Below, one piece after another: positions 4,700-64,000 of a stretch of DNA of 64,000 nucleotides. The stretch comes from Panorpa germanica. Lineage: Eukaryota; Arthropoda; Insecta; Mecoptera; Panorpidae. Made by a program: the position numbers and the translations under genes. The DNA is taken from positions 8,432,001-8,496,000 of the forward strand of contig OY783216.1 in NCBI GenBank assembly GCA_963678705.1, in the 5' to 3' direction. The notes below the pieces were generated by a model. That model had not been told where the DNA came from, did not search any database, and worked only from the letters and a program-made list of their open reading frames with translations. The first letter of the stretch is position 1. Each line of letters opens with the position of its first letter.

Positions 4700-5260
4700 T
4701 AAAGTTTAAATTTTCTTCTTCCATTTCAAAGTTCATCTGCTTTGTTATCTTCCTCCACTGCTTCCTCTTTACTTCCACAATCTATCTACTAACTTCTCTT
4801 CTTTTGTATTTATTCCTCACGACTCCCTCTGCTTACAAAGTTTCTCCTTCTTCTCTCTTCTCTTTCTCTTTACTTCCGTCTATCCCTCTTTCCTTGCAAT
4901 AACTCCTCCAAAATTAATTCACTTTCCACTTTATCCTGACACGTATACTTAATGTGTTCTAATTTTTCCTCTTCCTTTCCGTATATGCTACATAATTTCT
5001 CTTCTACTGCTCTCCAATACCTTCTACCTCTCTCTTCATTCCACAGGTTGAATCTAGCAATTAATTTCACATCCTTTCCCCCTTTATTTTCCCTTTGTGG
5101 TAATCCCTTAGTGCATAACCTTCTGCACCTTGTATTGTATCTTCCTTCGTTCATCTTCCTCATCCTCTCCTGTTCTTGAATCTCCACGTCTCTTTTCTTT
5201 ATCATACCTTCCATGTGCTCTTACTCTATTCACTTCCAGCGCTGCTACCTTCTTATTACC
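4700..5260 (-). mobile_element. LINE 3' fragment, RT C-terminal Cys/His region
   Basis: The minus strand is purine-rich and open from 5214 to 4870. It encodes, in order, a basic segment, IARFNLWNEERGRRYWRAVE, a CSIYGKEEEKLEHIKYTC stretch and a basic tail. This is the arrangement R-x-NE-x-YW-x-E-x-C-x-G-x-E-x-EH-x-C seen at the C-terminus of many insect LINE ORF2 proteins. The upstream RT domain is missing. Related fragments lie at 42616-43170, 45985-46470, 48540-48890, 51650-51880 and 63078-63215 (all minus) and at 56430-57015 (plus). Family name within the LINEs is uncertain. Confidence 0.75.
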
Positions 5261-42615: not shown

Positions 42616-43170
42616 TATTATTATTATTATTATTATATAAATTGTGTGCCTTTCGGCTTAACAATCTACAGTATTATATTTCCTAATACATTTTATTCTT
42701 ATATTCAAACTTACAACTAAACTTAAATAGTTCTAGACTTTTATTATTTCCAAAAGTACTTTTTGCTTGTTCTTCTCTTGACCCCTCTCTTTTTATTTTC
42801 CTTAGTCCTTCTTCATGCTCACCGTTTCCTCTCTTATTGTCTTCTTTGTTTCCTCTCAACAAACCCTCTATTATATTTTCACTATACTTCTTCCCTTCCG
42901 TCTTCATTTTCAGGCTTCTCCCGCCTTTTATGTCTATCACTCTGTTTCTTTTGTCCGACCATTGCGTTGATACTGGGAAAAATATTCCCTTCCCATTCAC
43001 ATTGTGGTTTGGAATGGCAACTAGGTGTTCGTATGGTTATATTATACATCACCACTGATTAAAATCATTTCAACTCTGGCGTTACTTTTCTGTCCTCGTT
43101 TCTTTTCTCTATGTCCGCCATCCACCTCTTCCCTTCACCTTTTTAAGAATTATGAAATATTGAGTCCTAT
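42616..43170 (-). mobile_element. LINE 3' end with ATT-repeat tail
   Basis: Read on the minus strand, the copy ends in GCCGAAAGGCACACAA followed by a (AAT)n tail (complement of 42617-42655), typical of insect LINE 3' ends. Upstream, the complement of about 43090-43137 contains GTGAAGGGAAGAGGTGGATG, shared with the copies at 48600-48650, 56437-56456 and 63090-63150. The hydrophobic plus-strand frames here are antisense by-products of the purine-rich element. Confidence 0.75.
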
Positions 43171-44607: not shown

Positions 44608-44610
44608 ATG
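44608..44610 (+). CDS. Hydrolase-like gene, exon 1 coding part (start codon only)
   Basis: The ATG is followed at once by a perfect GTAAGT donor, so exon 1 contributes only Met1. This start puts exon 2 in frame with an Arg-rich presequence. It is preferred over the internal TTG/ATG options in exon 2. Confidence 0.75.
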
Positions 44611-47600
44611 GTAAGTAGTCCAGCATATTTATAATATATATATTTGTTGTTAAATTTATTACTAATGAATAGGTATCTACTTGGGTATTACAAAGCATTT
44701 ATTTTCGGTTTTAGAAATTTAAAAAGAATTGCATAGTTGTAGAAAGTTTTTGAATTAAATCCAGGACTTTATTAATTACTAATAAAATTACAAATAAGCT
44801 CAAAAGGTTAAGTTTAGTTACAGCATTTTGAAAAAGGTTAAAGTATTCTTTGTCTATCTACAAAAACGTAACCCCTTATAAAGAGGGTCTTTTTATAAAG
44901 AACAACATAAAAATACAATAATTTCGTGAAAAGTGATAGTTTATATTTATTTTAATCCAAAGTACAAACTCTTAGGTTAGTAATGTAATACAATATCTGC
45001 CAAATGTCACCGTAATGACGACTGCATGTTGATAATAAAAAATAGTGCGAAATTTAAATACATAAGTGGTTTCAACATGTGTTAAAATTTATGTTTGCAT
45101 AGAGTCTGATTCTGTCTTTGAAGAGAAAAGAAGACATTATTTCTTTTGACATGAAGCCATTGATATTACAGTATTATTTAATTTTTAGGCGTTACTACGA
45201 AGAAGCTTAAGATTATTCAATCTACGAAATCGCATAGTTTCTATAAGATATTCCTCTGAAGCATCCAATTTGAATATCACCGAAATCCAAATACCAATTC
45301 ATAATAATTTGGTTCAAGCCAAGTGGTATGGCGACAAAAGCATCCATCCAATCCTGGCGCTCGATGGATCGCTCAATAAGAAACACAAGTTGGATAAAAT
45401 AGCGCGGAAACTTAACGGTAAATCTGTGTTGATGATTGATATGTCAGACGCCGTTGTACCACCCCCACCCCCGCCCACAAAACCTATTTTGTAAGTATTT
45501 AAGAATATGTTACCCTTATAAGAACGAAACGGTAGCATTAAGGGTGGTATATGGGATCCATCCCTCTTGCTATATTTTGAATGGTTTCTGCTCAAACTTG
45601 ACATTTTTTCGAAACATATTTCAAGCTATTTTTGTATGCTCGATTTAACCCTCATCATAAACCAATCGTTTGTTGACGCAAACAAACTTTCTACAATATT
45701 TATAAACACGATTGATTTTTAACTAATACTCCCTTCGGATATTTTCAATGTGTTTACTGGATCAAAATGTTTTTACATTTTACTGCCAATAAAAAACTAA
45801 AATTGTTTGCTTTTTCGATAATTTTGTTTGCATAAAACTTTGTAGCTGAAATGTTCCTTTTTTTACTATTGTTTTAAGAATGAAGTATTTCTTATTATTA
45901 TATCTTTTAGGCGTTACTGTTTTATGTGTGTATATATGTACGAGTATATTGTATTTTATTGAATGCGGCATTAATTTTACATTTCATGTCATTTACGAAG
46001 TTACATTCTCTTCTTCTTTTCAATGCTCCTAGCGCTTGTTTCCCTTTTAATCTCTCCTCGCTTTTCTTGTGCCATACATCATCTTCCTTCTCTCTACTTT
46101 TGCAACAGTTATTCTCACTACACCTTCCCACTTATTCTGCATTTTCACTCTCCTCTCCTTCGTTCTTTTTCTTCGATTCATTGCCTTATCCTAATCCGCA
46201 GCTGTCTGTATCTTACATTATGCCTTGATTCTCCCTTATTCCTTATCCTCTCTTCTTGTTTCACTTCTATATCCTTCTCTTATTATCCTCTGGACCTCTT
46301 GTTCCTCCTCCCTTATCTTTTTAGTCTCCTTCACTGCTATTAATCTTCCTTTATAATATCCTCTCTTTTCCTTGTCTCATCTCGTACTTCCCTCAATCCT
46401 CCCATATTCCTTTCATCCCACTTTTTCACTCTCACTCACGTTTATACCTTAATTCTGTTTACCTTCACTTCCTCCAATACCCAGCGTGCATTGCTACGAA
46501 ATCTTTTATCTCCGTAATTCCAAATAAAGTTTCAAACTTTTTTCTGGTAAGTTTTATATCAATTTTAAATTTTTTATATGATGTAAATTGACATAATTAA
46601 GTATATATATATTGTCGAAACTTTTCCATTATTATAATTCAATTGTTGTTGTTCGATACGGCAACTTACAATGACATTGTCATGACTAAGCATCTTCAAA
46701 AGCTACAAACTTTGCAATTTTGTCAAAATAGACATCAAATAAATATTCTCTAAAAGTTAGAATATTTAATTGTTTTAATAAATTCAAAACAATAATGAAA
46801 TGTTAATATTAAACTTTTTTCTCAATTAATGTGAAGCAGACATTTTTATTTACGCTTTTGATGTTGACCCCCTACCAGCACTATATTTTCTACACTATTA
46901 AAAACGTGTTTAAATTTAATGGGCAAAAATTAATTTGGCAAAACAATTCTTTTGACAGGAAAGCCTTAGTCCTATTATTTATAGAACCTGTAGTTGTAGA
47001 ATATCGAAAAATAAGTTGTGCGGTCTCCAAATTGAAATTCGCTTAAAATCCAATAAAACTACAAGGTTTATGAACATAAAGTTTAGGTCAAAGGTTAAAT
47101 TTGGAAAGTACCGCGTACATAGTTTACAACTTAGTGCAAAAAGGTGTATATTTTATTTTCCCCTGCTATCTCCACTAACGTCTTAGCTTTCTAACGTGCT
47201 CGTATCTTGTGGTGGCGCATATTAAACCTCCAACGACCTCAGTGCAGCTAAGATGTAAACAGTGTTAGTCAAATATGTTACACAAAACAAAAAAGAAGTC
47301 TTTGGAGATACATGCAAGCACCAGACATATCACAAAAGTTTCCCGTAAAGGGACCACTGAGAGCTATTCAGAAATATATATATTGATGTCTATGTATACG
47401 TATATATTTCTTCCATAAATTAAAATGAAACTTCTTGTTAAATTACAATTAATCTTATAAAGCAGATAAGGGTTTCTTATAAATCTAATTTACAATGATT
47501 AAAATGCCATAACAATTTTAGGGGATGCAGTGTCGATGTCAGTCCCAGTCGCAGCCCTTATCCCAATTCTCTGGAATGGCTGATAATAATTCGCAGCGTG

Positions 47601-50600
47601 GTTAAACATTTTAAATGGAAAAGGGTTACATTACTCGGGCATTTATTAGGGGCGCAGCTATCATTTCTTTACGCGGGAATGTTCCCTGCTGAAATGAATG
47701 TTTTAATCGCCATGGAACGCTGTCTACCCAATGTACATGAACCGTACGATGGTCCTGAAAATTTAGCACGAATAATTGAACAGATTATGGAAACGGAATC
47801 ACTGAATCTAAATCCGGATCAGAATCAGAATCAGAAGCTGAACGGTATGTAGTTCACGGTACAATACGGGAGTATTGAATTGTTTTAAAAAACCTTTTTA
47901 TTTTGTTAGATATGAGGGCAGGATTAACCTATTAAAACGTTTAATGTAGGGAAATTTCAGTAAAATGAAAACGTTGAAGCATCTGCTTGATATTCCGGTG
48001 TACGTGGAAAGTGTTTTTTATAGATACAGTACTTTATTTTATGCATTTCTTATAATTGTTTTGCTTTCAAGCTTTCCTATCTCCTCAAATTAAATTTACA
48101 CTATTTTCTTAAACAATATCTAATACACCAGTTTCGCTTTCTTCTACTGCCTTGATCTGTTCTTTATCGTTCTTTTCTTCCATCTACACATCTTCATTTC
48201 TTCCTCGCTCTTAGTAAATATCCTTTCATGCTCCTACTTTCCATTTTCGCACTACATATAACACAACAAACAAACTACTATTTGATAAATAAATATGATT
48301 CTTAAATAGTATCAACCTTCAAACAATATGTGTTAAAATTTCGTGACAATCCATCTATTAATTTACCAGTTACAGTAGTTTTAGTGAGGCTACTTTTATA
48401 ATTTTCAAAACAATGGAAAAATCTGAATTCGTGTGTTGATAAAGCATAGTTATCATTTGTCTCCATGGAGCAGAGTTCAAATATCAATTGTGTCCCAAAT
48501 AGCCATTGCTTTGTTCCTTATAAAAGTAAAAACAAAACAGCTACTTCTTTGCTCCTCCTGCTACTCCCTCCTGTTTCTACTCTGCCATTTCTTTTCTTTC
48601 CTCGTTCCATTTCTCTATCTCCACCATCCACCTCTTCCCTTCACTGCCTAATATTCTTTTTGCTTATTACCTTATTCTCACATGAAAACTTAATGTGCTC
48701 CAATGTTTCTATCTCCATTCCGCACACTCAGCACATTCTTTTCTCGCTATTTGCCCAGTATCTGTTTCCTTTCTCCTCGTTTTCCAATCTAAATCTAGCA
48801 ATCCTTCTCATGTTTTTTGTGTCTTTTTCTCTTAAGTATTGTGGTCTCTCTCTCTCTCCTAAATCCTTTTATAACCATTGCTAGCCATTGCTTTGTTTAA
48901 ACGGTATTTTTAACCTTTAAAAAGCAATGATTTAATGGGTAAAATACATATTTATCTCTTTTTAAGTATTTTTGTTGCATATTTTTAATTTACTTGTTTT
49001 AATTTAGATGTTAACGACTTTATTTTGTTTTTACTTATTTTTCTTACTTTAATCATTCTTTATGTGCATGCGTCAATTATTTGCGTTGCACAAATTGAAT
49101 TAATTGAACTTATTTATACTATGGTATCACATTCTAAGTTACTATCCGAGTTTCTTGAGCTAGCGTATATTTAACGTATATTTGGCACCATCCATGATAG
49201 ACTACGATGATTCAATAGTTTCACAGAGTTGTGAAGGCCATTGTTTGAGTTCTTTATTTGCTTATTACTTTGAATATAAATCCACATCATCTCAATAATA
49301 TACAAGTAGTTGCTTGGTTGATGCCTTCCATTTATTTCCATTTGTATCGATGTCATAAAAGCCCGCTAAATACATAAGAGCGCTGTATACAACTACGTGA
49401 ACATCCTATTAACTAGTCCATCTTAACTTAGATGCAGCACACAATTTAATTGAATTTATTTCGTTGTCTTAGTCAAGCTATTAAACCCACTAGAATATCA
49501 AGCAGCTTAAATAATTGCTCTATGTTACAACGTCGATTCAATTTGCCTGATTACAACTTAAATGTAGTGGCCTTAATGTTTATAGCCATGTTCTTTTCTG
49601 TTGTTAAAGAAAAAATACTTAATTTACAGCCATTTTACTGTTATCGATTTTACTTATTTCTTATCTAATCGACTTGTGTTAAATCTTTGTTTATAACGTA
49701 CTCGTATTTAAATATCACAATTTTGCAATGAAATTACAGAAAAGCGTGACGTCACGCAATATGGCGACACGAATACGAATGTGGTAGCGGCTATAACTAA
49801 TACTAACCCCATCTGGGGGATTAAGGGTACACCGTGGCTTACACATCCTGAGGTATGTATCCCTAAATTCTTGGTAATCAAACCCCGAACCTAAGAATGT
49901 TACCCGCAAACCTTTTTTGAGTCGAATGAATTTGTAACCAAATGCGGGTTTGCTTTTTGTAATTAATCAGGTTGTATTAGTTGTGGTAAGGGACACCCTG
50001 CTTGCTTGTTTTAGACATTCGACGCTGTAATGGACATTCGATATTTTTGCGTAAACTGAAAGAGAAACACACGCAGACGAATTTGTAATTATTAGAATTT
50101 TTGTTTTTTTTGAATTCCGCATGTAATCCAGTTCCAGTGTGAGAAAGAGCCTTGTGCCGTCCGCACATGGGACGACTGATTGCAAACCTTAGGCCGAATT
50201 TGTCCGAACCGAATGAGAATGCAACTGTATTGTTAGTGAGAGAACGAACGTGTATACGAGTGAGATAAAACACACGGCATCAATGAAACTAAACTGGTTT
50301 AGAATACGTTTTCAGCGACTCTGTTCCTCGGTCACAGGGCCGAGATTGTTTGCATGCTTTTGATGATGACATCATGAACAGAGATGTGTACAAATACTAT
50401 TCAAAAGTATTTAATACATACAAATATGACAGAATAAAATTCCCTGTTATGCTATTGTTAAAAATTCTATAGAGTCACGAAACACGGCTAGTTTGCAATC
50501 AGTCGACTCGTCTGCGGAGTGCCTTCAGCTGCTTTCAAGTTGCAACCGTAAGTAAATCCTTCTTCGTCATTGTGAATCCGAAGGACAAACATAGGCGGAA

Positions 50601-51326
50601 AAAAATACACGCGTGAGAACCGCCTTAGGCATGACAAGATTGTTGACACATATGAGTTCAAAGAACTAAAAGAAAAACAATATGTCTATTCAACCCGTCG
50701 AGTTCGCTTTCAGTTTTTAGATTTTACAAATAGGAAAAAAAACATTTCCAAAAATAGACTTTAGTATTCAATGTCTTTTTTAATTCGATAAATATTATAG
50801 CTCAATAAATAGAGAACATGTTACGAATATCCATAGAATTCGTTATGACTTTATTTAACATACAGTAGCGAAACAAATACCATAAACTAACACATGTTGC
50901 CAAAGGGAATTCTCATGCGATGCTACAGTATAAAAGCTTCCGTTATTATCTCCTTCCCCTCCCATAACTGAACAACACACCAATATTAATTTCAATACAT
51001 GTAATTATTTCCAATTACCAAAAGTACTCAAACATTTGTAAATAGTTTTAAGGACCTATTAAATATGTTACATATCATTAATATTAATTTCCTTGTAGAT
51101 TTTAGGATACGCCTCCCGGATAATTAGCCCCACATTAATATTAGATAACAAAGGAAATCGAAATAATTCTGTGGAGCAACTACGACTCCAAGAGGTGCTG
51201 GAAATTATGTTCAAACAGGGCACATACGTGAAGCATTTAGATGATCGTGTTGGGGATGGTGACGACATTGACGACATCGCTAGGATAATAGACTGCTTTA
51301 TTGACGAACGTTGTGTATACAAATGA
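44608..51326 (+). CDS. Kraken-like serine hydrolase homologue, alpha/beta-hydrolase fold, predicted inactive; five exons
   Basis: Joining 44608-44610, 45189-45490, 47522-47844, 49740-49852 and 51099-51326 gives 969 nt, 322 residues and one TGA stop. Every intron is GT-AG with GTAAGT or GTATGT donors, and all phases agree. Residues 1-27 are a basic, Arg-rich amphipathic stretch (LLRRSLRLFNLRNR, then RYSS), like a mitochondrial presequence. The fold follows insect Kraken-like serine hydrolases: an EIQIPI..AKWYG start, PILALDG (family HGW), a GHLLG elbow at 141-145, and GTYVKHL at 288-294. The family's nucleophile Ser is Leu143, the HGW motif is DGS (60-62), and the catalytic His position appears to be Tyr290. 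The cap region is shorter than usual. Members of this family act as esterases or thioesterases of unclear substrate; this one probably cannot hydrolyse. Intact frame argues for a pseudoenzyme, but a young pseudogene is possible. Confidence 0.85.
45189..45490 (+). CDS. Hydrolase-like gene, exon 2 (residues 2-101 plus two bases)
   Basis: Preceded by ATTTTTAG and followed by GTAAGT. It encodes the presequence, the first beta strands and the DGS motif (60-62). A run of six prolines (92-97) falls where the family has the DLPGHG loop, and the exon ends on two bases of a Leu codon. The in-frame TAA just after the donor is intronic. Confidence 0.85.
45985..46470 (-). mobile_element. LINE fragment in intron 2 of the hydrolase-like gene
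   Basis: The plus strand is very pyrimidine-rich, and the minus strand is purine-rich with open stretches rich in Lys, Arg and Glu, like the other LINE tails in the window. It lies antisense in the intron 45491-47521. No conserved motif is clear, so the assignment rests on composition and resemblance. Confidence 0.5.
47522..47844 (+). CDS. Hydrolase-like gene, exon 3 (nucleophile-elbow exon)
   Basis: Acceptor CAATTTTAG, donor GTATGT. The first base completes Leu102. The exon encodes WLIIIRSVVKHFKWKRVTLL, the GHLLG elbow and the helix that follows it (LSFLYAGMFP). These match the family well apart from Ser to Leu at 143 (codon TTA, 47643-47645). It ends with a NPDQNQNQK stretch built from a CAGAAT repeat. 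Confidence 0.88.
48297..48520 (+). repeat. Dispersed repeat (AACTTTCAAAC...ATTCGTGTG), copy 2, in intron 3
   Basis: Same blocks as 21340-21560: AGTATCAACCTTCAAACAAT, CCAGTTACAGTA, GAATTCGTGTGTTGATAAAG and CATTGCTTTGTT. It lies directly next to the LINE fragment at 48540. Confidence 0.7.
48540..48890 (-). mobile_element. LINE RT C-terminal fragment in intron 3
   Basis: The complement encodes CGMEIETLEHIKFSCENKV, the CxG..ETxEHIxxxC motif of LINE ORF2 tails, followed by the shared GTGAAGGGAAGAGGTGGATG block. The plus-strand frame of 139 codons is the antisense shadow of this element. Confidence 0.75.
49740..49852 (+). CDS. Hydrolase-like gene, exon 4 (reduced cap region)
   Basis: Acceptor AATTACAG, donor GTATGT. 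It completes Glu210 and encodes 37 residues, including QYGDTNTN and IWGIKGTPWLTHPE. The family has a longer, helical cap here; this version is short and Thr/Asn-rich. Confidence 0.8.
50156..50523 (-). mobile_element. MITE family A, full-length copy in intron 4
   Basis: About 368 bp with terminal inverted repeats: left GCCGTCCGCACATGGGACGA, then CTGATTGCAAAC; right GTTTGCAATCAGTCGACTCG, then TCTGCGGAGTGCC. It is in the opposite orientation to the copy at 60626-60998, since its right half (GCTATTGTTAAAAATTCTAT) is the complement of that copy's left half. No transposase, so it is non-autonomous. Confidence 0.85.
51099..51326 (+). CDS. Hydrolase-like gene, exon 5 (C-terminal exon)
   Basis: Acceptor CCTTGTAG in phase 0. 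It encodes 75 residues and TGA: SRIISPTLILDNKG corresponds to the strand before the acid loop, GTYVKHLDD to the histidine loop, and IARIIDCFIDE to the final helix. The alternative acceptor TTTTAG six bases on would shift the frame. Confidence 0.85.
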   Translation: MLGYASRIISPTLILDNKGNRNNSVEQLRLQEVLEIMFKQGTYVKHLDDRVGDGDDIDDIARIIDCFIDERCVYK

Positions 51327-60000: not shown

Positions 60001-60620
60001 GTGCCAGCCACCACTTGCTCAAGACCTCGTTACCTCGTTCTTTTAATGTCATCCCTTTTCTCATTTTAATTATGAATTACATTTTCTTAATATAATATAA
60101 TATAGCTACTATAAATAAAAACATTAAGTGTTAGAAATGTACCACTTCAACAAATAAATTTAATAAAATCCATTATTGAAGACCACTCTTTCCTAATCTA
60201 TTTTTAAGGCACTGTGGCCTTTTACATAATCAGGGGCCTCCTTTTCTTTTCTTCAAATTTTACACTGTTTTATTTTTTTTTTTTAAAAGAAGAAGAGCAC
60301 ATTACTAGTGAGCAAAAGTCAGAAATAACGCCACAGATTTGAATTGGTATATAAGTTTTAAATAGAACATTATTAAAGAGAAGAAAAAAAACTAAAAAAA
60401 AATCAGAGCATAAATATGAATTGAATCGAGATACAAAGATGAAATTTTTGAATACAGATTTATTGGATAAAAGTAAAATTGGCCCAATTAAAAAATGTTT
60501 ATAAGAGATAATGGTAGGTTCACAACCAAATGAGTGGAACTTAATATAAAAAAGAACATTTATTTTAGCGAACAATTACATAAAAATAATATTTGGCTGT
60601 AAGGCTAAGTTGACAGCTAA
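57020..60620. other. Intergenic, no gene seen
   Basis: GC-richer patches at 57160-57270 and 57380-57520 hold repeated CGTAG words (CGTAGCTTGGCGTAGCATCG) but no open frame of note. The rest is AT-rich with no feature. Confidence 0.4.
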
Positions 60621-62296: not shown

Positions 62297-62796
62297 ACTT
62301 TTAGTCTATAGGAAATATAGGCTATTCACTCTCCATATATATATGCTCTAAGGATGTAATACGTGAAAACTCTTTCTAAACTTAAACTCTATTTTTTATG
62401 GTTTTTTATTTTATAAGTTATTTTTACTTTCGTACTTCTGATGAAACATGAAACTAAGCAGAAATTCCATTGCAGAAAAATAAAATAAAAAACTTTTGCA
62501 ATTACTAAAAGTATCAAAAAGTATTAAGCTAACATTTTACATTAATTAGTAAATCATTTCCATTAGTCCAGATAAATATTTGATGGGATTAAGCGGAGTA
62601 ATGTCATTAGTGCAGATTAGTGAAACATCATGATTGGTTTCATTTTAAATAATTAGTGTTCTGCTAATAGCGGACCTAATAACTTATTAGGAAAACAAAG
62701 CTTGTTGTTGTTGAAAGGTTAAAAGGACATTTGTCTACCCTACCCGTATGTGTAGCTACGATACATTTCACTGATATATTCTTTTCGTTCCTAGAT

Positions 62797-63052
62797 ATGG
62801 GGCTGGAGCTGTCAACTTTAATCCAGGTGGCGGTAGTTGTCATTGCTGTCGTTATTTTCTGTATCTGCTTAAAAATTTACACCATCGTAAGTTGCGGTAT
62901 GTTCAAAGAAGAGACAAGGATGGATGGGAGGACGGTTGTGATCACCGGGGCTAACAGCGGTATTGGGAAAGAAACCGCCATGGATTTAGCTAAAAGAGGA
63001 GCCCGTGTCATTATGGCGTGCAGGAATCTAAATTCTGCTAATGTTACGAGAA
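62797..63052 (+). CDS. SDR gene, first coding exon
   Basis: Begins two bases after the acceptor TTCGTTCCTAG with ATGGGGCTGGAG, and ends at a GTATGA donor. It holds the membrane anchor, the glycine-rich cofactor loop and the basic ACRN segment (typical of the cofactor ribose or phosphate site). The frame also stays open upstream, but that part lies before the acceptor and is intronic. Confidence 0.88.
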
Positions 63053-64000
63053 GTATGAGTTTTCTTTTTATAGTTTATAAGGTATGTTTCTACTCTACTG
63101 TTCTACCTATCTCCGTCATCCACGTCTTCTCTTCACTACCTCCTTTTAATAACTGCCCAATATTCTTTTCGCTTTTTACCTTTTTCTCACATGAAAACTT
63201 AATGTGCCAACGTTTCTATCGGATAAGATAATATTTTGCATTTATTGTAATTGTGAATCGTATAAATTTGTTAATTATCAGCCACGCAATCCGAATCGAA
63301 CTCGGGATCAAGAACTTTTAAGAAGCACATTTATGAACCATATTAGTTTTTCATTCACACTGATATATTTCTATATTAGTTCCTTTTAGTCATCTAAAAT
63401 AACTCTGTGTTAAATATTTTTTTAAAAACAAGTTAATATAACAACAAACATCTAATTGAACGTTGCTCATAAATTTGCAGATGCCATCATTGACGCCACG
63501 GGAAACAAAGATGTGTTCGTTAAGAAACTAGATCTAAGTAGCCAACGCTCAATAAGAGAATTCGCTGAAGATTTCCTGATGACAGAAGATGCACTTCACG
63601 TACTGATCCACAATGCCGGAACCGCCCAAGTGTTTAAAAAATTAAAAACCGAAGATGGCATTGAAACAACAATGGCGGTTAATTATTACGGCGTTGTCTT
63701 GTTGACACATTTATTAACGGATATCCTGAAACGTTCAGCGCCATCTCGGATCGTTATAGTGACGTCTTCGTTTTATCGAGTTGCTTCTGTCAATTTAGAG
63801 AATTTGAATCCAGTGGAAACACTGCCGGCCTACTTATATTTCGTATCGAAGTTAGCCGTTATTTACTACTGCCAGGAATTGGCGAAGAGATTGGAAGGAA
63901 CACTAGTATCAGTCAATTGCCTTCATCCAGGAATGGTTGATACTGCTATTTGGAAAACTGCGCCAATTCCATTAAATTTAGGAATACTATGTTTTTCAAA
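62797..64000 (+). CDS. Retinol-dehydrogenase-like short-chain dehydrogenase/reductase, 5' part
   Basis: An NAD(P)(H)-dependent SDR of the microsomal RDH11-14-like group, which oxidises or reduces retinoids, sterols or other lipid alcohols and aldehydes. Exons 62797-63052 and 63481-64000+ join in phase (A|AT, Asn86) to give 258 residues before the window ends; the family is about 320-330. Residues 8-31 form one hydrophobic membrane anchor, then GMFKEET and [17 protein letters not shown] with the TGxxxGIG cofactor motif at 50-57. NAG is at 130-132, the likely catalytic Ser at 181, YFVSK (Tyr205, Lys209) as the YxxxK pair, and HPGM at 234-237 followed by [17 protein letters not shown], very like lepidopteran members. 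All active-site residues in view are kept. The substrate cannot be told from this. An upstream 5' UTR exon is implied by the acceptor at 62793-62794. Confidence 0.92.
63078..63215 (-). mobile_element. LINE fragment inside the SDR intron
   Basis: Shares with 48570-48700 the blocks TCACATGAAAACTTAATGTG, CCAATATTCTTTT, and the complement of GTGAAGGGAAGAGGTGGATG in a diverged form. It lies antisense in the 428-bp intron 63053-63480. Confidence 0.75.
63481..64000 (+). CDS. SDR gene, second coding exon (continues past the window)
   Basis: Acceptor AAATTTGCAG. It encodes residues 86-258 with [18 protein letters not shown], the NAG, Ser, YxxxK and HPG motifs, and stays open to the last base. No stop or donor is reached. 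Confidence 0.92.

Follow-up and report, generated by a model that had tools for sequence, protein, structure and literature searches.

Can a gene of the serine-hydrolase class lose the residues of its active site and still be maintained? The question is raised by a 64,000-nucleotide stretch of the Panorpa germanica genome (contig OY783216.1, positions 8,432,001 to 8,496,000; here called the window), which carries between its positions 44608 and 51326, on the forward strand, a five-exon gene for a predicted protein of 322 residues whose relatives are the alpha/beta-hydrolases of the Kraken/SERHL/PA1622 branch. Judging from its sequence, this gene is most likely a fast-evolving, non-catalytic relative of Kraken/SERHL, and we consider it probable that it is a maintained pseudoenzyme, that is, a Kraken/SERHL paralogue that has kept the alpha/beta-hydrolase core and would be incapable of nucleophilic ester or amide hydrolysis.

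The initial annotation had pointed to changes in three motifs of this protein (residues 60-62, 141-145 and 288-294), and these, together with the codons named for them, are present in the joined coding sequence. In the oxyanion loop, residues 60-66 (45363-45383, +) read DGSLNKK in place of HGWQDNA, with D60, G61 and S62 encoded by GAT GGA TCG and the QDNA of positions 63-66 replaced by LNKK. At the nucleophile site, residues 141-145 (47637-47651, +; GGG CAT TTA TTA GGG) read GHLLG for GHS[LM]G, placing Leu143 (TTA, 47643-47645) at the position of the nucleophilic Ser. Near the C-terminus, residues 288-294 (51219-51239, +; GGC ACA TAC GTG AAG CAT TTA) read GTYVKHL for GTHH[VL]HL, with Tyr290 (TAC, 51225-51227) where the catalytic His would be and His293 kept. 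That the key codons each lie one base from a normal codon is true, but says little on a branch as long as that of this gene. The PGHGxS motif is also absent, and in place of it or beside it there is a proline-rich insertion where exons 2 and 3 join, namely six prolines at residues 92-97 (45459-45476, +) at the end of exon 2. The cap region is shortened, with part of it missing. Compared with 82 family rows (80 bacterial relatives and the paralogues on contigs C9 and C3 of the same genome), the window protein is thus changed at the His and Trp of the oxyanion loop, QDNA, PGHGxS, the nucleophile Ser, the catalytic His and the His next to it, and it retains Gly61, Asp85, Gly141, His142, Gly145, Gly288 and His293.

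In the family, the GHSxG and HGW columns are conserved at 98% in the unfiltered 82 rows, and at 76 of 76 in a set that had been filtered for HGW, GHSxG and length, and so by construction. All 80 bacterial relatives keep the nucleophile Ser, 77 of them as GHSxG in the sequence as extracted, one (L040) as AHSLG, and two (L029 and L060, both among the six of the 82 rows that the 76-row set leaves out) in another frame, where HGW and GHSMG are present. Since HGWQDNA was what the scan looked for, its conservation among the bacterial relatives is in part a product of the search; the motif occurs independently in the C9 and C3 paralogues, and GHSxG and GGHH were not criteria of the scan. The alignment demonstrates, for the predicted product, the loss of the nucleophilic Ser and of the oxyanion-loop signature. 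The loss of the catalytic His is less firmly demonstrated, since the last exon aligns firmly to the C3 paralogue only, and the placing of Tyr290 at the catalytic position hence depends mainly on that alignment, the same exon being unsupported against C9.

The reading frame that carries these changes has the features of a coding sequence. As had been proposed, the five exons are in phase, giving 322 uninterrupted residues, and all introns are of the GT-AG type with strong donors (GTAAGT, GTAAGT, GTATGT and GTATGT for introns 1 to 4, and AG at all four acceptors). Exon 1 (44608-44610, +) consists of the start codon, followed directly by a GTAAGT donor; exon 2 (45189-45490, +) encodes residues 2-102, codon 102 being partial, with an Arg-rich N-terminus, the first strands of the fold and the altered oxyanion loop; exon 3 (47522-47844, +) encodes a helix, a strand, the nucleophile elbow, a further helix and a strand; exon 4 (49740-49852, +) on its own has no detectable similarity to the family; and exon 5 (51099-51326, +) encodes the C-terminal part and ends in TGA. 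The joined coding sequence (969 nucleotides, or 322 codons plus the stop) has no internal stop, against 28 and 27 in the two remaining forward frames, and 500 random 966-nucleotide stretches drawn from introns 2-4 contain a mean of 16.9 and a minimum of 7, which argues that the frame is not a chance one. For the joined frame, a codon score with the three paralogues as training set and introns 2-4 as background is 0.089, versus a maximum of -0.057 among the 500 stretches drawn from those same introns. The content of guanine plus cytosine (GC) of the coding sequence is 0.42, as against 0.25-0.36 in the four introns and 0.25-0.33 in the 1-kb flanks. GC at third codon positions, also 0.42, is well above that of the coding stretches of the paralogues (0.23-0.32) as well as that of introns and flanks, and we have no explanation for this.

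The relationship to the Kraken/SERHL/PA1622 branch was examined exon by exon, using 2000 shuffles of each exon and alignment scores against the C3 and C9 paralogues; these, with a third on C5, were found in a genome of 464 Mb in 249 contigs. An Orco gene marks this genome as an insect's, Orco being too conserved to tell insect orders apart, and a search for a chorion family, run with no positive control, gave no match. For exons 2 and 3, none of the shuffles scored as high as the real exon against either paralogue (0/2000). In tblastn searches, exon 2 matched C3 with 33% identity (expect value, E, 3e-4) and C9 with 25% (E 0.003), and exon 3 matched C9 with 37% (E 6e-12) and C3 with 35% (E 3e-11). 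Our own family profile of 76 rows matches the window protein with 49.5 bits (E 1.7e-17 in a search of this single protein). Exons 2 and 3 therefore clearly belong, by sequence, to this branch, and exon 5 may be assigned to it weakly. The earlier statement that the chain follows a Kraken-like fold accordingly holds for exons 2 and 3, extends to exon 5 against C3 only, and is not borne out for exon 4. As a query against the genome, the window protein retrieved itself, C9 (34%) and C3 (32%) over the matched parts, and a chance-level match on C6 (E 0.8); C3 as a query added one more member, that on C5. All three of these other members (3/3) retain GHSxG and the first His, C9 and C3 carrying HGWQDNA, PGHG, GHS[ML]G and GTHH[VL]HL, and C5 carrying HGTND, GHSLG and DGTHDVH. 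The C5 member (G000:C5:3504820-3505161(-) and 3501425-3501898(-)), which reads HGT where the family has HGW and THDVH where it has THHVH, itself shows a milder departure in which the Ser and the first His are kept. Of 35 stretches of viral contigs that matched a pattern, none was a relative. About 380 kb downstream, at G000:C13:8873425-8889319(+), there is a group of several exons of which four contain HGWPGS; we take them to be epoxide-hydrolase-like, and the match at 8888957-8889319 passes through three stops, perhaps an intron.

Structure prediction for single exons is consistent with this assignment. Exons 2 and 3 were folded singly, exon 3 with AlphaFold2 and 28 bacterial family rows, and because the pieces were folded together with family rows, the models are pulled towards the family fold. 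For exon 3 (107 residues) the mean predicted local distance difference test score (pLDDT) was 76.6 and the predicted template modelling score 0.60, with pLDDT block means of 91-95 over positions 31-60. The model comprises a helix, a strand (35-40), a helix (42-53) and a strand (58-64), and Leu143, as residue 41 of the model, falls at the sharp strand-helix turn of the nucleophile site. Its top Foldseek matches were the PA1622 entries 7al6 and 7al5, that to 7al6 having E 7.6e-3, a probability of 1.00 and a TM-score by query of 0.48. The model of exon 2 (100 residues, mean pLDDT 72.5) has four strands and one helix. Four of its top five Foldseek matches are titled pyruvate decarboxylase and one is FrsA, all of which we take to be proteins of the alpha/beta-hydrolase fold, and the rest are mostly esterases and other hydrolases; PA1622 was not present among the 50 matches listed for this exon.

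Conservation was then compared with what would be expected of a decaying sequence. Two classes of columns were defined in the family alignment, namely 60 that are at least 90% hydrophobic and not invariant, and 31 in which a single residue fills 90% of rows or more, the latter including the catalytic motifs. The window protein retains the hydrophobic class in 49 of the 60 columns (C3, 56; C9, 53) and the invariant residue in 11 of the 31 (C3, 25; C9, 27), the counts of C3 and C9 being slightly favored as these paralogues help define the columns. For the hydrophobic columns, 40 shuffles of the window protein, put through the identical alignment, gave a mean of 36.5 (standard deviation 3.2, maximum 42), and 40 runs in which the C3 gene was decayed neutrally to 30% identity gave 36.5 (standard deviation 3.7, maximum 43); for the invariant columns, the means were 8.7 and 9.3, respectively, with a maximum of 13. 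The hydrophobic core is therefore kept above the null level, whereas the invariant positions stand at that level. The decayed C3 genes had also accumulated a mean of 14 stops, and at least 9, in the 40 runs. Together with the retained core, this makes it most likely that selection was still acting on the frame when catalysis was lost.

The same reasoning bears on a different account, under which a former pseudoenzyme or a relaxed paralogue died so recently that its frame is open merely for want of time. Such a history would fit the very long branch of the gene, and the open frame limits neutral time to about 0.02-0.04 substitutions per site, no tighter: at the 95% level, neutral change that has gone unseen is bounded at about 0.043 substitutions per site if insertions and deletions (indels) are left out, and at about 0.020 if they occur at 0.1 per substitution. 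It requires, however, that death fell inside a narrow recent interval, and the good splice sites, the coding composition and the core pattern speak against it, no disabling change having been seen. Under a simple model that takes the four changes as independent, the maximum probability that codons 60, 62, 143 and 290 were all changed by neutral decay in an otherwise intact gene is 8e-6, falling to 5e-7 when indels are allowed at the same rate, so that the active site was most likely not lost through the decay of a dead gene. A very recent death of an already inactive gene is compatible with these figures, and we regard it as unlikely. Of the two possibilities named in the initial annotation, a pseudoenzyme or a freshly dead gene, the former is favored by the frame, splice sites, composition and retained core alongside invariant positions at null level, and the latter lacks support as the cause of the lost site.

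A number of results weigh against the reading of a maintained pseudoenzyme. The gene is known from the sequence of one genome. The profile match comes from exon 3 alone (1.8e-13 in the six-frame scan), exon 2 by itself giving E 4.6, and with Pfam Abhydrolase_1 the whole protein scores 16.3 bits, under the curated cut-off of 25.8 that the C3, C9 and C5 paralogues pass. The score of exon 4 was reached by 989/2000 shuffles against C3 and by 1964/2000 against C9, and that of exon 5 by 2/2000 against C3 and by 1093/2000 against C9; the tblastn match of exon 5 to C3 (33%, E 1.8) lies in the expected order, yet below a chance match (E 1.4) at 60402-60482. By exon, the codon score in frame is lower than that of a shifted frame for exon 2 (0.009 versus 0.019 in the +1 frame) and exon 5 (0.064 versus 0.074 in the +2 frame). 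The exon 3 model superposes poorly on 7al6 (root-mean-square deviation 9.3 over 81 columns), and neither exon gave a Foldseek match below E 0.001, the best being the one to 7al6. In a tree built from the four genome members plus 25 of the 74 bacterial rows (29 in all), in which the placement of the window gene is unsure, its end branch measures 4.74 changes per column, two to six times those of C3 (0.75), C9 (1.49) and C5 (2.43). A long branch is expected once catalytic constraints are lifted; it also fits relaxed constraint or poor alignment. Finally, Glu167 and His293 are still present.

The weakness of the last two exons raises the alternative that the gene model is an artefact, the true product being made from other exons, or exons 4 and 5 being foreign to the gene. 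The absence of similarity in exon 4 and the restriction of that in exon 5 to C3 would agree with this, as would a first coding exon that is a bare ATG. To look for the missing motifs elsewhere in the window, the profile was run over 2,877 six-frame pieces of at least 15 residues, and the window was searched by tblastn with C9 and C3; only exons 3 and 2 stood above background, and no other motif-bearing exon came up. Resplicing of intron 2 was also considered. Combining 12 donors with 9 acceptors near the exon ends gave 108 pairs, of which 36, including the annotated one, keep an open frame, so further in-frame splicings exist on paper. None of the 36 contains HGW, GHS, PGHG or GTHH, and the annotated donor is the only GTAAGT among them. 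An alternative GTAAAT donor near 45418 was not among the 36. The five exons join into an open frame, and the window contains no N. We consider an artefact very improbable. The case in which Ser and His are supplied by other exons was thus sought and not found.

The persistence of Glu167 and His293 in turn brings up the possibility of a changed enzyme, in which the remnant site, comprising these two residues and the new Asp60 or Tyr290, does different chemistry. Glu167 (47715-47717, +) aligns with a column holding Glu in 48 and Asp in 28 of the 76 rows, so that the triad has not disappeared altogether; judged by an alignment to YbfF, this residue is the likely triad acid. A loss of the acid, which had been considered with residue 168 as its position, was ruled out, as the column corresponds to residue 167 and Glu is common there. 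This account draws on the acidic residue at the likely acid position and on the last His of the loop being retained. Against it stand the changes at the nucleophile, the oxyanion loop, QDNA, PGHGxS and, less firmly, the catalytic His, as well as the null level of the invariant columns, and we hold new chemistry at this site to be most unlikely.

If the gene is a maintained pseudoenzyme, its protein would be made and folded and may act by binding, its target being either a small ligand, in what is left of the pocket, or a protein partner such as the active-looking paralogues. Its N-terminus suggests where this might occur. Residues 2-24 (45189-45257, +) are Arg-rich and resemble a mitochondrial presequence in sequence, and could thus direct import into mitochondria: there are six Arg, and neither Asp nor Glu, among the first 24 residues. 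The best hydrophobic moment over 18 residues in this segment is 0.48, ranking 295 of the 304 windows of the protein. C-terminal SKL is a peroxisomal signal; the C9 paralogue ends in SKL, and the window protein does not. We tentatively raise the further idea, itself rather doubtful, that a duplicate of a peroxisomal-type SERHL enzyme lost catalysis, lacks SKL, gained a mitochondrial presequence and is now a mitochondrial binding protein. If true, a single insect gene family would show a shift of compartment coupled to the loss of catalysis. The change of compartment stays a proposal: the presequence is judged from sequence, and Drosophila Kraken is marked as not localised to peroxisomes. This last entry comes from a table citing one survey (PMC7477296).

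Among the solved structures of the Protein Data Bank, the window protein finds its best sequence match (E 2.9e-7) in entry 7al5, PA1622 from Pseudomonas aeruginosa, which C9 matches with E 5.9e-29. PA1622 is a Kraken/SERHL member (7al5, 7al6) to whose family core exons 2 and 3 align. Unlike Kraken, SERHL and PA1622, the window protein has no nucleophile Ser, has Tyr at the catalytic His, lacks HGWQDNA and PGHGxS, and has a shortened cap. The finding is one more non-catalytic alpha/beta-hydrolase, of a kind already known from other families. NDRG3 (6l4g/6l4h) is described as having the hydrolase fold with the triad replaced by non-reactive residues, and the introduction of the same paper mentions other non-enzymatic members of the fold (PMC7022630). 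The window protein resembles NDRG proteins in the loss of the triad within the same fold, and NDRG3 is among the 50 structural matches listed for exon 3; it differs in that NDRG is a separate family by sequence, Pfam Ndr giving only E 0.14 for exon 3, and the two losses probably arose independently. A further parallel is offered by GH28 pectinases, whose fold presumably differs from that of the present family. In leaf beetles, inactive GH28 paralogues of digestive enzymes are described as having lost catalysis and yet mattering for the animal, as tested by RNA interference (PMC6549527). These belong to another family, and their effects were measured, whereas the window gene is known as a DNA sequence. 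No inactive Kraken/SERHL member was found in the literature among the matches listed, which covered open-licence papers. In Drosophila sechellia, one member of the family, Kraken, is reported to play a part in resistance to toxins (PMC13042304). If maintained, an inactive Kraken/SERHL paralogue in a genome that also has three members whose Ser and His are intact would provide a small system for asking what role such copies play; were the gene a recent pseudogene, the case would be an ordinary one.

Elsewhere in the window, two long open frames on the forward strand (62683-63228 and 63456-63998) read like a short-chain dehydrogenase, with a start sequence of that kind, and presumably one resembling retinol dehydrogenase. 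A 71-nucleotide repeat with 87% identity occurs at 43068-43138 and 48574-48644, the second copy lying within intron 3 of the hydrolase-like gene. Two minus-strand frames (48728-48868 and 4873-5220) share letters similar to IARF.L.NEE and look like a dispersed element.

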